Assembly (NCBI RefSeq): GCF_021491375.1
Contig: NZ_JAKEVY010000003.1
Coordinates: 310,001-374,000 of the forward strand
Length of the DNA stretch: 64,000 nt
From: Flavihumibacter fluminis
GTDB lineage: Bacteria > Bacteroidota > Bacteroidia > Chitinophagales > Chitinophagaceae
Direction: 5' to 3'
Made by a program: the position numbers and the translations under genes. Below the pieces are notes generated by a model. The model worked only from the letters and a program-made list of their open reading frames with translations, was not told where the DNA came from and ran no database searches. Below are positions 59,833 through 64,000 of this stretch, one piece after another; within the stretch, counting starts at the first letter, position 1; the number at the start of each line of letters is the position of its first letter.

Positions 59833-60991
59833 CAGCACTATTCAAGATTGGAAAAACAGTCTTCAAATTGAATTGAATCGAATTCTTCTTTTCTGGAAGC
59901 AGGTAGTTATCGATAAACATACCGGAGCCTGTTTTGGTCGTGTTTCCAATAGTAACCAGGTGTTTGGGGAAGCGGAGAGAGGACTTGTTCAGCAGGCCAG
60001 AGTACTGTGGGCATTTTCGGCCGCCTATGGATTGAATAAAGCAGAGGAGGATAAACAGGTTGCTGACAAGGCCTATGAATATCTGATACATACTTTTGAA
60101 GACAAACAGCATGGCGGATATTTCTGGATCGTGGATCACCAGGGATATCCGCTTGTTACCAAAAAACAGTTATACGGACTAGCATTTGCATTATTCGGAC
60201 TTGCAGAATATGCTGCTGTCATGCAGGTGAAGGAAGCAAAAGAGAAAGCCATCGCCCTTTTTCATATTATAGAGAACTATTTCTCCGACAATACATCCGG
60301 CGGTTATTTAGAAGCCTTATCTCAAAGCTGGGAACCCATTTCGGATATGCGGTTGAGTGAGACAGATCTCAATGCGCCAAAATCAATGAATACTCATCTC
60401 CATTTACTGGAAGCCTATTCCTGTTTTTTTAAAATCTGGCCGGATAAACAGTTAAAATCACAAATAGAACTGCTCCTGCAACTTTTTCAAAAAAAGATAA
60501 TTGATTCAGCTAACGGTAATCTATACCTGTTTTTTGACATCAACTGGAAAGTTGTATCTGCTTCTGTTTCCCATGGGCACGATGTGGAAGCTGCCTGGTT
60601 ATTGTGGGAAGCAGCCTTGCAGCTGGATGATCCGGACTTATTAAAGCAGATCCAAACATCCTCTTTAGGTCTGCTGGAATCTGCTGTTAAAGGATTGGAT
60701 AGTGATGGTGCTCTTTGGGAGGGTACTGAAAAACATTGGTGGCCCCAGGCGGAAGCAATGGTTGGTTTTTATACCGGTTGGCAATTTACCCAGGATCCAT
60801 TATGGCTAACACGGTCCCTAAACTCCTGGAAATTTATCCGGCAAAAACTGGTGGACAAGAAAAACGGCGAATGGTTCTGGGGAATTGATGCTGACGGCAG
60901 GGTACTGAAAAAGGATAAAGCAGGATTCTGGAAATGTCCCTACCATAACAGCCGATCCTGCATTGAACTCATTCGCCGTATTGAAAATTAG
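59822..60991 (+). CDS. Cellobiose/mannobiose 2-epimerase (AGE family)
   Basis: A 389-residue cytosolic (alpha/alpha)6-barrel enzyme. The catalytic His motifs are visible: SHGHDVEAAWLL in the middle and KHWWPQAEAMVGFY towards the end, both typical of cellobiose 2-epimerases. FGRVSNSNQVFGEAERGLVQQARVLW marks the N-terminal substrate region. Expected reaction: C2 epimerisation of a reducing-end glucose or mannose in a beta-linked disaccharide, feeding a phosphorylase or glycosidase. The start overlaps the transporter gene, and the 3' end overlaps the next convergent gene by 4 bases. Confidence 0.9.
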   Translation: MRIDSTIQDWKNSLQIELNRILLFWKQVVIDKHTGACFGRVSNSNQVFGEAERGLVQQARVLWAFSAAYGLNKAEEDKQVADKAYEYLIHTFEDKQHGGYFWIVDHQGYPLVTKKQLYGLAFALFGLAEYAAVMQVKEAKEKAIALFHIIENYFSDNTSGGYLEALSQSWEPISDMRLSETDLNAPKSMNTHLHLLEAYSCFFKIWPDKQLKSQIELLLQLFQKKIIDSANGNLYLFFDINWKVVSASVSHGHDVEAAWLLWEAALQLDDPDLLKQIQTSSLGLLESAVKGLDSDGALWEGTEKHWWPQAEAMVGFYTGWQFTQDPLWLTRSLNSWKFIRQKLVDKKNGEWFWGIDADGRVLKKDKAGFWKCPYHNSRSCIELIRRIEN

Positions 60992-61662
60992 CAATCTGGC
61001 TTGATTACGTTCTCCATTGTTTTGCCATCAAACTTAAACAAGCCAAAGCCGGTTGTTCCAAACCAGAGTTGGCCGGAATTGTCTTCATAAATGAGTTGGA
61101 CAGGAGTTTGAATGGGCTGGTCGTTGGGACTCCTGGGCGAACGAAACATTGGAAGGGTGGTAAAGGCTTCATTTTCAAACTTCGCCAAACCTTTGCGCGT
61201 GCCGGCCCAGAGAATCCCCTTTTTATCAAGATAAAGATTAAGTATCTCATTATCAGGTAATCCATTTGCAGTAGTATAGGATGTCCAACCCTGCTTGTTT
61301 TTTCGGGAGATACCCCCGTTGGTTGCCATCCATACATTCCCCTGGCTATCCTGAAGGATGGTACGAACCGCATTGCCCGCAAGTCCGTCGTTTTTGGTAA
61401 AATAAGTAAAATCAGTTCCATCAAATACGCAAACCCCGTCCTCTCCGGTTGCGATCCAGACTGTCCCGGTTTTATCCTGCAAAACATACTGAATTGATTG
61501 ACTGATCTGAAATTCTTCTGGCCCTGGTTTAAGTTCTTTCTTCATAAAATCAGGACCTGTCCATACTCCGATGCTGGTTGGTGAAGCATCCGCCGGTTGA
61601 GGTAATTCCTGCTGGTCATTGATCAAAAACAACCAGATCAGGGAAATTAAAATCGAGTTCAT
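60988..61662 (-). CDS. Exported two-component-regulator propeller-type protein
   Basis: A 224-residue protein with a hydrophobic N-terminus (MNSILISLIWLFLI) as signal or anchor. About four Reg_prop blades follow, each with 'D-x-x-G-x-x-W-x-A-T' (QDKTGTVWIATGEDGVCVFDG, QDSQGNVWMATNGGISRKN, LDKKGILWAGTRKGLAKFEN, EDNSGQLWFGTTGFGLFKFDG). Such blades normally form the periplasmic sensor of hybrid two-component systems (14 in a full sensor); here only a short free-standing set remains. Its promoter faces that of the membrane regulator gene at 61814. Confidence 0.85.
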   Translation of the reverse strand: MNSILISLIWLFLINDQQELPQPADASPTSIGVWTGPDFMKKELKPGPEEFQISQSIQYVLQDKTGTVWIATGEDGVCVFDGTDFTYFTKNDGLAGNAVRTILQDSQGNVWMATNGGISRKNKQGWTSYTTANGLPDNEILNLYLDKKGILWAGTRKGLAKFENEAFTTLPMFRSPRSPNDQPIQTPVQLIYEDNSGQLWFGTTGFGLFKFDGKTMENVIKPDC

Positions 61663-61724
61663 GGGAAATTGTTTAGTTTGAAAAATTGATTCAGGACCAA
61701 TCTAGCAGGTGATTTTGTCAAATA

Positions 61725-61764
61725 GGGTAAACCAACTGTAAATTGATTGTAAACGACCTGTAAA
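61725..61764 (+). promoter_or_regulatory. Four 11-bp-phased direct repeats upstream of the membrane regulator gene
   Basis: GGGTAAA (61725), CTGTAAA (61736), TTGTAAA (61747) and CTGTAAA (61758) start exactly 11 bases apart. Head-to-tail repeats at about 11 bp are the usual binding pattern of OmpR/PhoB-type winged helices, which is the domain type encoded just downstream. A possible weaker unit, TTGTCAA, lies at 61715, slightly out of phase. Confidence 0.7.
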
Positions 61765-61780
61765 AACCATTTTTTGAAAT

Positions 61781-61809
61781 TTTACAGCATCCTGTAAAAC
61801 ATATATTTG
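61781..61809 (+). promoter_or_regulatory. Further half-sites and -7 box of the membrane regulator gene
   Basis: An inverted copy (TTTACAG, 61781-61787) and a direct copy (CTGTAAA, 61792-61798) of the repeat unit precede TATATTTG (61802-61809), a full match to the -7 box TAnnTTTG. No TTG lies 19 bases upstream of it, which suits an activator-dependent promoter. Transcription would start at or next to the ATG. Confidence 0.55.
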
Positions 61810-61813
61810 ACAT

Positions 61814-62695
61814 ATGAAATGGAAGCTGTATTGGGGGATTGTATTGCTGTTGCCGGTATTGGTACTGGCAGCATTTATGCACCGTGACTCCGCTAATGCT
61901 GAATATAAGAAGGCCCGGGAAGAAATCATTTTACGGAAGGTTTCACACAAATTGTTGCAGGCAGCCGGGGATAGCAGTTCCCGTGTGCCCGAAATCAAGA
62001 AAATTTCGGAAACTGAATACCTGCTTCCCCTGGAAACAGCCATTTCTTTTCATCCCGATTCACTGGTGAATATCATCAATCAGGTAATTCAGCAACATGG
62101 GTTATCCAACCGATACATGGTAAATGTACTGGAACAACCTGCTAATAAAATTGTATTTGGTTATGCAATGATTGGGTCCGAACAGGAGAATATCATACCC
62201 TGCCTGGGTCGGGAACAACCAGTAGGAAAATATTCGGTACTGATTCGATGGGAACCTCATAACAATTCAGGAACGGCTTTCTGGATAGCTGGGATAGTTC
62301 TTGCTGCTGGAATCGGGGCCGGACTGTATTTTAAAAGAGTCCGGCGCATGCCCAAGAAAGAAGAAGGTCAAGTTATACAGGAGGAAATCCTGCCTGGAAG
62401 CCTGTCCATCGGCCATTATCAGTTCCATGCTGAAGCGCAGGAGCTTCACTTTGGAGAAACCATCCTTTCTCTGACAGGGAAAGAAACAAAATTGCTTCAG
62501 ATTTTTGCAGCCTCCCTCAACGAACTCGTAGATCGCAAAAGGCTCCAAAAAGAGGTTTGGGAAGATGAAGGCGTTATAGTTGGCCGGAGTCTTGACATGT
62601 ATATCTCAAAACTTCGAAAGAAATTGGAATTGGACCCTGCAGTTCAGCTAATAAATGTACATGGCAAGGGCTACAAATTGGAAGTACGGGCTTAA
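61814..62695 (+). CDS. Membrane-anchored winged-helix transcription regulator
   Basis: A 293-residue protein. A first membrane span (about 5-21) leads to a periplasmic region of some 130 residues, then a second span (153-173) and a basic cytoplasmic linker. An OmpR-type Trans_reg_C winged helix follows (195-292, with LTGKETKLLQIF, then VGRSLDMYISKLRKKL and VHGKGYKLEV). There is no receiver domain. This is the reverse of ToxR/CadC, whose DNA-binding domain is N-terminal. It should sense a periplasmic signal and bind DNA from the membrane. The upstream repeats suggest autoregulation. It overlaps the convergent phytochrome gene by 4 bases. Confidence 0.88.
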   Translation: MKWKLYWGIVLLLPVLVLAAFMHRDSANAEYKKAREEIILRKVSHKLLQAAGDSSSRVPEIKKISETEYLLPLETAISFHPDSLVNIINQVIQQHGLSNRYMVNVLEQPANKIVFGYAMIGSEQENIIPCLGREQPVGKYSVLIRWEPHNNSGTAFWIAGIVLAAGIGAGLYFKRVRRMPKKEEGQVIQEEILPGSLSIGHYQFHAEAQELHFGETILSLTGKETKLLQIFAASLNELVDRKRLQKEVWEDEGVIVGRSLDMYISKLRKKLELDPAVQLINVHGKGYKLEVRA

Positions 62696-64000
62696 ACCAA
62701 TTCCGGCTGTTCCACTTTTTTCAACCGTATGTAAAAACGGGTGCCTTTATTTTGTTCTGTTTCAAACCACAACTGCCCCTGGTGTTTTTCAATGATGCGT
62801 TTTACAATTGCCAATCCAAGTCCTGTTCCTTCGTAGTTACTGGCTCCTGGCAGTCTGTAAAATAAATTGAAAAGGTTTCCGGTGTGCCTTGGATCCATCC
62901 CGATACCATTGTCTACTACCGTGTAAAGAATAGCATCCTGTTCCGCCGATCCTGTCACCTGAACCAGTGGCTTGTCTGTTTTGGATGAATACTTCAAGGC
63001 ATTGCCCAACAGATTGCTGAACACCTGGCTTATCATGGTGCTGTCGCCATAGATTTCAGGTGTTTCTCCAATCTGAAACTCAGGATGTATATCCTTGTAG
63101 GCATCCAGCAGGTCTTCCCTGATCTGATTCAGCAAGGTTTTCATATCAATCGGCTGTAGGCTGATTTGCTCCCGCCCCAGCTTGGTATAACGAAATACCT
63201 CTTTTATCATCAACTGCATGCGCTCCGCATTTCGTTTAATCTTTTCAGTTAGCAACCTGTTATCCAGGTTTGGATCTTCCTCCAGCAATAGTTCAGCAAA
63301 ATTATAGATGGTGGCAAGTGGTGTTTTCAGATCATGCGATATCGTATAACTGAAACTGTCCAGTTCTTCGTATGCTTTTTTTAATTCATCATTCAGTCGC
63401 TTCAACTGATTGGTTTTTTCCTGAATGAGCAGCAGTATCTCTTCACGTAATTTATAAGCGTTGGATAACTCAGCAGTTGCCCATTTTTCAGATCTTCCCT
63501 TGAGTGACTGAATGAAAATGGCAAAGGAACTGCGTGGTTCAATTCTTGTTTCACCATCGGGATTGAGAACGACTGCCTTCTCGGGGTTTCCTGCCCATTT
63601 AATTTCCTGCTCTAATTCGGGTTTGAACCAGAGTATACAATCCTTCAGATCTGTAGACAATGGTGCGCATAACATTCCGCTAGCCGTTAAAGCTGCTGAG
63701 CCGGCAGCTGGATAAATGGAAGAAAGATGATTGGTTTGAAATACCTGGTTGGTTGGGGCTGTTTGAAGGAATTCAGATAACTCCATGAGAAACTCCTTTC
63801 CAGGTGTTTGACCAACCAATGTAATCTGTCCATCATAGATCAGCGCGGCCCCCTTTGCTCCATTGATGGATAGGAGGTCAAGACTTCCAGTGGATACGCC
63901 TTCTGCAATGGATTCGAATTGACGCATCTGTCTTACCAGTCCTGCCGTATTCTCTCTCCAGTAATGGTGTAATTGTTGTTTTTCTTCCTCCACCTGGTAC
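62692..64000 (-). CDS. Bacteriophytochrome histidine kinase, C-terminal part (runs off the window)
   Basis: The frame is open to the window edge (the first visible GTG at 63993 is probably internal). Visible from the N-side is a PHY domain with CILWFKPELEQEIKWAGNPEK and the PRSSF motif, the hallmarks of the tongue region. A coiled helix (KTNQLKRLNDELKKAYEELDS) follows, then HisKA with YTISHDLKTPLATIY (phospho-His) and a HATPase with SNLLGNALKYS, DNGIGM and GTGLGLAI. The PAS and GAF domains that bind bilin must lie beyond base 64000. Red/far-red light sensing is inferred from the PHY domain. No response regulator is visible in the window part. Confidence 0.88.
   Translation of the reverse strand, partial: YQVEEEKQQLHHYWRENTAGLVRQMRQFESIAEGVSTGSLDLLSINGAKGAALIYDGQITLVGQTPGKEFLMELSEFLQTAPTNQVFQTNHLSSIYPAAGSAALTASGMLCAPLSTDLKDCILWFKPELEQEIKWAGNPEKAVVLNPDGETRIEPRSSFAIFIQSLKGRSEKWATAELSNAYKLREEILLLIQEKTNQLKRLNDELKKAYEELDSFSYTISHDLKTPLATIYNFAELLLEEDPNLDNRLLTEKIKRNAERMQLMIKEVFRYTKLGREQISLQPIDMKTLLNQIREDLLDAYKDIHPEFQIGETPEIYGDSTMISQVFSNLLGNALKYSSKTDKPLVQVTGSAEQDAILYTVVDNGIGMDPRHTGNLFNLFYRLPGASNYEGTGLGLAIVKRIIEKHQGQLWFETEQNKGTRFYIRLKKVEQPELV

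Follow-up and report, generated by a model that had tools for sequence, protein, structure and literature searches.

In ToxR and CadC, the winged-helix (wHTH) domain occupies the N terminus of a protein with a single transmembrane (TM) helix, and the hybrid two-component systems (HTCS) of Bacteroidota use Reg_prop sensors. In PhoB-type class II activation, the bound array ends at the -33/-35 element of the promoter. Transmembrane transcription regulators such as ToxR, CadC and TcpP, which combine a wHTH domain, a TM segment and an extracytoplasmic sensor, are described in PMC10269533 as abundant in Bacteroidota. In the co-component systems VtrA/VtrC, ToxR/ToxS and PsaE/PsaF, as outlined in PMC9214523, the gene for a membrane wHTH regulator adjoins a separate gene for an extracytoplasmic partner; in the VtrA/VtrC type, this partner follows in the same, often overlapping operon and is lipocalin-like, and the regulator bears a conserved near-C-terminal Cys (PMC9214523).

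Here we analyse a window of 64,000 nucleotides (the whole stretch under study) from Flavihumibacter fluminis, in which the genes of a predicted membrane-bound wHTH regulator and of a divergently transcribed exported protein flank a tandem array of short repeats (Table 1). Our main reading, to which we give a probability of roughly 0.75, is that the array is bound by the adjacent regulator and controls both promoters, and that the exported partner is read by the sensor domain of the regulator as an exchangeable component.

Table 1. Features of the regulator-partner locus, in window coordinates
Feature	Position	Strand	Remarks
Divergent exported partner, 224-aa Reg_prop propeller protein ending ...VIKPDC	60988-61662	-	PF07494, E 4e-24
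Proposed divergent-gene -7 box TAGATTGG	61697-61704	-	21 nt beyond distal unit
Imperfect fifth unit TGTCAA	61716-61721	+	10 bp before first unit (chain with at most 1 mismatch per unit; gaps 10, 11, 11, 11)
Core tandem array: GGGTAAA 61725-61731, CTGTAAA 61736-61742, TTGTAAA 61747-61753, CTGTAAA 61758-61764	61725-61764	+	Read directly
Inverted copy TTTTACAG	61780-61787	+	Read directly
Perfect 20-bp inverted repeat TTTTACAG-CATC-CTGTAAAA	61780-61799		Just upstream of the regulator -7 box
Extra direct copy CTGTAAA	61792-61798	+	Read directly
Proposed regulator -7 box TATATTTG	61802-61809	+	4 nt before ATG, 37 nt after proximal unit
Membrane-bound winged-helix regulator, 293 aa	61814-62695	+	TM/sensor/wHTH topology predicted
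Convergent histidine kinase with phytochrome (PHY) domain	62692-63993	-	Related gene at the same place in Flavihumibacter-type loci

The earlier note had reported four half-sites at an exact 11-bp period, placing each of them exactly, together with two more copies, one of them inverted. Direct reading confirmed both statements: the period of the four GTAAA half-sites is exactly 11 bp, and the inverted and the direct extra copy lie as listed in Table 1. Within the window, GTAAA-N5/6-GTAAA occurs four times, three of them at the array, against an expectation of 0.30, and none of 100 shuffles reached four. Across the whole 4.71-Mb genome, the strict three-unit pattern has a single site, which is this array; a relaxed scan (2 mismatches, fixed 11-bp spacing) added one further site (C11:201846), and its reversed control also gave one. 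A broad regulon was therefore rejected for this genome: the strict motif occurs once, and the relaxed motif is at control level. The inverted copy is kept in the nearest relatives (L035-L037) and missing in L006 and L038, which rules it out as part of the core site. Comparison of the sequences places the conserved part of the site at 61725-61764, which we propose as the operator of the regulator, serving both divergent promoters. The 20-bp inverted repeat consists of one inverted and one direct half-site; it recurs, with variations, only in the nearest relatives and could be a separate dimer site.

The regulator has its nearest relatives in Flavihumibacter, at 90-95% protein identity. Its Pfam scan returned PF00486 (Trans_reg_C) alone, corresponding to the C-terminal wHTH domain (E 8.8e-17; 61.4 bits, cut-off 26.2), with no receiver or kinase domain, and in the model the N terminus consists of a TM helix and an extracytoplasmic domain. 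The best NCBIfam models were RprY, PhoB and CpxR, all far below their own cut-offs. A structural model built from 33 sequences (mean pLDDT 83) predicts a long helix at residues 3-50 (a signal anchor continuing outside), strands and one helix at 62-146, a TM helix at 152-177, a low-confidence linker at 179-193 and a cytoplasmic winged helix at 196-291; by this predicted topology, an extracytoplasmic alpha/beta sensor spans residues ~51-150. The 50 Foldseek matches listed for the full model are winged-helix regulators, including SaeR, PhoB, CadC, CpxR, ToxR and OmpR. The sensor modelled by itself reached a pLDDT of 92.6; against the PDB, it had no Foldseek match at E ≤0.001 and no sequence match up to E 1, and a Pfam scan of 32 sensors returned only families matched by one member each (best E 0.00047).

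Four residues stand out: Cys130 (codon 62201-62203), Arg41, Asp53 and Arg133 are invariant in the alignment of all 109 regulators described below. Cysteines near positions 108 and 139 occur together in 82 of these, are both missing in 26 and are mixed in one; because they are present or absent together, they are probably paired in a Cys108-Cys139 disulfide, leaving Cys130 as a free thiol. A paralogue, L002, was considered as a second membrane regulator and ruled out, its sequence being that of a receiver-wHTH protein (with the receiver read by eye).

Relatives were collected from a genome-contig scan (30 loci) and from 98 family genomes (32 matching at E ≤1e-20), 248 order genomes (50 at E ≤1e-25) and, with the sensor alignment as query, 345 phylum genomes (24 at E ≤1e-10). 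The loci fetched from these matches number 129, and 123 of them encode a regulator including the sensor; merging identical proteins left 109 regulators, many of which are close relatives and not independent of one another. An array was called when at least three TGTAAA units, each with at most one mismatch and with total mismatches not exceeding half the number of units, lay within 300 nt upstream. At 10-12 bp spacing, such an array precedes 67 of the 109 distinct orthologues (dinucleotide shuffles 0/2,180). When spacings of 8-13 bp were allowed for the remaining 42, another 23 showed at least three units (base shuffles 0/2,180); in 20 of these, the spacing includes 12+9 bp, either by itself or joined by another 11, while two have 13+9 and one has 13+12+9. 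A tandem TGTAAA array thus lies within 300 nt upstream of 90 of the 109 regulators, 19 being without a three-unit array directly upstream, and many of the array-bearing orthologues stand at 30-50% protein identity.

Conservation of the repeats upstream of orthologues was the test that the earlier note had set in advance for its reading, and with 90 of 109 regulators bearing an array, against 0/2,180 shuffles in each control, the repeats are conserved. Together with the PF00486 domain, this conservation gives strong support to its proposal of tandem OmpR/PhoB-type sites in front of the regulator. The loci with wider, mostly 12+9 spacing are L008-L010, L012-L017, L020-L022, L053, L054, L057, L058, L072-L074, L084-L086 and L091; in 20 of these 23, the array ends 4-17 nt upstream of the called regulator ATG, which implies a different geometry at the regulator's promoter. 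The module, with array and an ...EDGC-tailed propeller, was also found in MAGs labelled Ignavibacteria and Kapabacterium (L056, L059), where either transfer or misbinning may be the cause.

The position of the array relative to the promoters is likewise constrained. PMC9723704 gives TAnnTTTG as the -7 box used by the main sigma factor. In the window, the box before the regulator is perfect and no TTG precedes it at the usual spacing, just as the earlier note had described and as direct reading confirms; at the partner promoter, we propose that the array itself occupies the -33 position. We examined phasing at 63 loci with at least three units (called by a separate array rule), accepting TAnnTTTG-like boxes with at least 5 of 6 matches. 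At 54 of the 63 loci (shuffled mean 3.5 loci, maximum 9), a partner-side box and the distal unit are separated by 19-22 nt (28 hits) or 31-32 nt (29 hits); at 47 loci (shuffled mean 1.9, maximum 6), a regulator-side box and the proximal unit are separated by 26-27 nt (24 hits) or 37 nt (23 hits). On each side, the two preferred offsets are about one 11-bp unit apart. A TAnnTTTG-like box ends 3-5 nt upstream of the regulator ATG at 47 of the 63 loci, and, as a -7-type box so near the start codon makes a leaderless transcript possible, the regulator may be translated from a leaderless mRNA.

Judging by gene order, the link between the array and the divergent gene for the exported protein is at least as tight as that between the array and the regulator. 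Ten of the 19 regulators without a three-unit array directly upstream were examined further out: four have an array before the first gene of the run, one has it reversed (L083, at 96-117 nt), and no array was found further out in the other five (L019, L077, L082, L090, L116). Looser arrays are present in some of the remaining nine. In the four (L106, L107, L115, L126), the regulator stands behind one or more same-strand genes, and the array precedes the first of these at 75, 57, 67 and ~116 nt, respectively (the start in L126 being uncertain), with the same orientation towards that gene as towards divergent partners elsewhere. In the case of L106, six same-strand genes separate the array (L156) from the regulator, encoding proteins of 133, 384 and 155 aa (the last of them ending ...KGGDGC), a member of the 180-aa family described below ending ...RKGGC and two propeller-like proteins, so that two tail proteins occur at one locus.

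Across the 98 family genomes, the strict pattern was found 19 times, in 13 of the genomes, and its reversed control 7 times, in 6 of them. Fifteen of the 19 lie before the regulator and the other four before partner-family genes: one before the gene of a BNR propeller with the tail ...GGGC, close to a contig end that would hide any regulator, and three with no regulator adjacent (L179, L180, L185). Of these three, two precede genes 54-86% identical to the beta-lactamase-like (PF00144) partners of L030, L032, L108 and L129, and the third lies before a YceI-like gene that shares 68-74% identity with the partners of L023, L034, L122 and L127; this arrangement suggests regulation in trans where a genome has more than one target. 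The earlier note had favoured autoregulation of the regulator as the simplest inference and had added that the propeller gene might respond as well. The first proposal is half the picture, in that the array is kept upstream of orthologues and is also tied to the divergent gene; the second gains weight, as the array accompanies the partner gene even where the regulator lies elsewhere, and the distal unit of the array falls at the -33 position.

A divergent ORF starts within 420 nt of 94 of the 109 regulators and none does so in 15; the counts that follow refer to the 84 complete nearest divergent ORFs, the other 10 running off the contig or the fetched stretch. Partner starts are uncertain, since simple rules were used to call the ORFs. 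The 84 partners fall into 15 BLAST clusters, led by Reg_prop (20), a ~180-aa Chitinophaga-type family (16; the scanned member had no Pfam match), BNR (12) and YceI-like proteins (10), with smaller ones including DoxX and beta-lactamase-type (PF00144) proteins. The names Reg_prop, BNR, YceI, DoxX and PF00144 derive from one to three scanned members each plus BLAST linkage, a TonB_C match was weak and under its cut-off, and the remaining clusters are named by length only. Two terminal features recur among the partners. A hydrophobic N terminus is present in 82 of the 84, and 52, from 7 of the 15 clusters and all with an export-like N terminus, end in Cys, with ...KPGC, ...KGGC, ...RGC and ...DGC as common tails; the other 32 lack a terminal Cys, three of them having a Cys inside the last three residues.

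As background, we counted 416 further ORFs with a length of 100 aa or more, taken from the window and from the DNA that yielded the partners; 11 of them end in Cys. Nine of these are further tail proteins at the same loci (eight with an export-like N terminus and one whose called start lacks it), and two are unrelated. Counted blind, 8 of the 160 exported-like background ORFs end in Cys; in our judgement, based on place and sequence, all eight belong to this system.

In 14 of the 16 members of the 180-aa family, no second Cys follows residue 30, which leaves the terminal Cys unpaired within the mature chain. Tails are not uniform within families: in the YceI cluster, 3 of 10 members bear one, with L023 and L127 tailed and their close relatives L034 and L122 tail-less, and the tail is thus easily gained and lost (19 changes on the regulator tree). 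That tree is a quick one, with 36 of 106 inner branches weakly supported. Tail-less genes also include the array-bearing gene of L185, which has no adjacent regulator, and the genes that open the L106 and L107 runs. With 32 of the 84 partners tail-less, close relatives differing in the YceI cluster and the L185 gene without a tail, the tail is not strictly needed. Among the part of the tail-less loci that was checked, some nearest genes (L008, L051) are followed by a tailed second gene. Tail presence showed no clear link to the Cys108/Cys139 pair (tail and pair 39, pair without tail 26, tail without pair 13, neither 6). On the same tree, partner family switches at least 25 times, where 15 labels need a minimum of 14. 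The BNR partner of L084, ending ...SSGC, sits among regulators with mostly 180-aa partners, and tails recur after such exchanges, for example in the BNR partners of L084, L119 and L124.

These observations can be assembled into a working mechanism. Several cytoplasmic winged helices would bind the array head to tail, one per half-site, and the bound regulators would control both flanking promoters: at the partner promoter, the array would end at the -33 position, as in PhoB-type class II activation, and at the regulator's own promoter it would provide autoregulation. Taken separately, this DNA part (binding of the regulator to the array, and regulation from it) is likely on the sequence evidence, and the sign of the regulation is probably activation. 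The sensor domain would then read, outside the membrane, the exported partner produced under the control of the regulator. Contact would most likely be between the C-terminal Cys tail of the partner, where present, and Cys130 of the regulator: an invariant free thiol in one protein and a terminal thiol in the product of the adjacent gene point to a mixed disulfide. We advance this docking tentatively, at somewhat under even odds. Cys130 is equally invariant where the partner is tail-less and must therefore have another or additional role. A fuller form of the proposal, which we regard as more speculative still, is a plug-in sensory system of the Bacteroidota: a single conserved membrane winged-helix receptor would accept unrelated exported sensors, addressed by a Cys tail (typically -xGC-COOH) disulfide-bonded to Cys130, and would sense the occupancy or redox state of this link, setting the expression of the partner and of itself through the TGTAAA array. 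In such a system, the invariant Arg41 and Arg133 would perhaps bind the terminal carboxylate.

Much of this evidence could also be accommodated by a plain one-component, autoregulated membrane regulator, whose array serves both promoters, whose exported neighbour is merely a regulated product, and in which Cys130 alone senses redox, a metal or a small ligand, the Cys tails having another use such as anchoring or retention. The invariance of Cys130, Arg41, Asp53 and Arg133 beside tail-less partners fits this simpler arrangement, as do the 32 of 84 partners that end in another residue and the partner-family genes with an array and no adjacent regulator (L179, L180, L185). Against it stand the terminal Cys in unrelated exported families beside the regulator (7 of 15 clusters), the confinement of all terminal-Cys exported-like background ORFs (8/160, grouped by judgement) to these loci, and the reappearance of tails after partner exchange (for example, the BNR partners of L084, L119 and L124), and we consider it unlikely, if a serious competitor.

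Other alternatives concern the array itself. It could be a repression site, at which bound regulators block both promoters until a signal frees them; the distal units extend over the -33 region of the partner promoter, and protein bound to the 12+9 arrays that end 4-17 nt before the ATG (20/23) would cover the core promoter. Against this, the distance of 19-37 nt between -7 boxes and array at most of the 63 loci and the lack of a consensus -33 before the regulator's box in the window are the geometry expected of activation, which makes repression improbable. Binding of the array by another OmpR-type protein, for example an RprY-like response regulator (G000:C36), with the conservation seen here being incidental, is conceivable in a genome that encodes other wHTH proteins, including a receiver-wHTH protein at 35% identity in the domain; yet 12 of the 13 family genomes with a strict array have the regulator (E ≤1e-20), the thirteenth has a contig end there, and the strict array tracks a regulator found in just 32 of 98 family genomes, leaving this explanation very improbable. 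A chance AT-rich repeat can practically be dismissed, with a three-unit chain in 0/2,180 shuffles and one strict site in 4.71 Mb.

On the preferred reading, a motif of four repeats becomes a testable signalling module found in many Bacteroidota, and the reading of the earlier note holds, widening from autoregulation to a two-gene sensing module. The module supplies an operator of defined geometry, a receptor with an invariant, probably free Cys, and a code-like tail at the C terminus of exported proteins that are otherwise unrelated, and it offers a first functional hint for families such as the ~180-aa Chitinophaga-type proteins. Should the tail dock on Cys130, it would represent a general means of attaching interchangeable sensors to one membrane receptor. 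As strict operators are few and mostly lie beside the receptor's own gene, the module also bears on how membrane-bound regulators reach DNA.

Compared with known systems, the module shares with PhoB, OmpR and CpxR the PF00486 wHTH domain and head-to-tail half-sites about one helical turn apart. The distal end of pho boxes lies at the -33/-35 position, as is proposed for the array here, and the CpxR box, GTAAA-N5-GTAAA, is similar to the GTAAA core of the array. Unlike PhoB, OmpR and CpxR, the regulator is predicted to be membrane-bound and lacks the N-terminal receiver domain by which two-component response regulators are recognised, and its arrays, unlike their boxes, comprise three to five half-sites at the TAnnTTTG promoters of Bacteroidota. 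As in the ToxR/CadC type, a single chain combines wHTH domain, TM helix and extracytoplasmic sensor (by predicted topology), but here the wHTH domain is C-terminal (196-291), behind two TM segments (within 3-50; 152-177), and the sensor lacks a confident PDB match. A Reg_prop propeller beside the regulator recalls HTCS, whereas the propeller here is a separate protein and the regulator has no kinase or receiver domain. A lipocalin-like partner fold is absent from the window, where the partner is a Reg_prop propeller, and BNR and YceI partners occur elsewhere; as YceI is lipocalin-like, this difference applies to the window and not to every locus. Among the matches listed from the open-licence PMC literature, we recognised no description of the regulator-partner pair or of the Cys tail in titles and abstract openings. 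With the co-component systems, the module has in common prominent cysteines and a fast-changing partner next to a membrane wHTH regulator; it differs in that the partner is usually divergent, with the operator between the two genes, belongs to many unrelated families and carries the terminal Cys itself. By analogy, we propose that the two genes encode a co-component-like pair, in which a membrane winged-helix regulator would read an exported partner.
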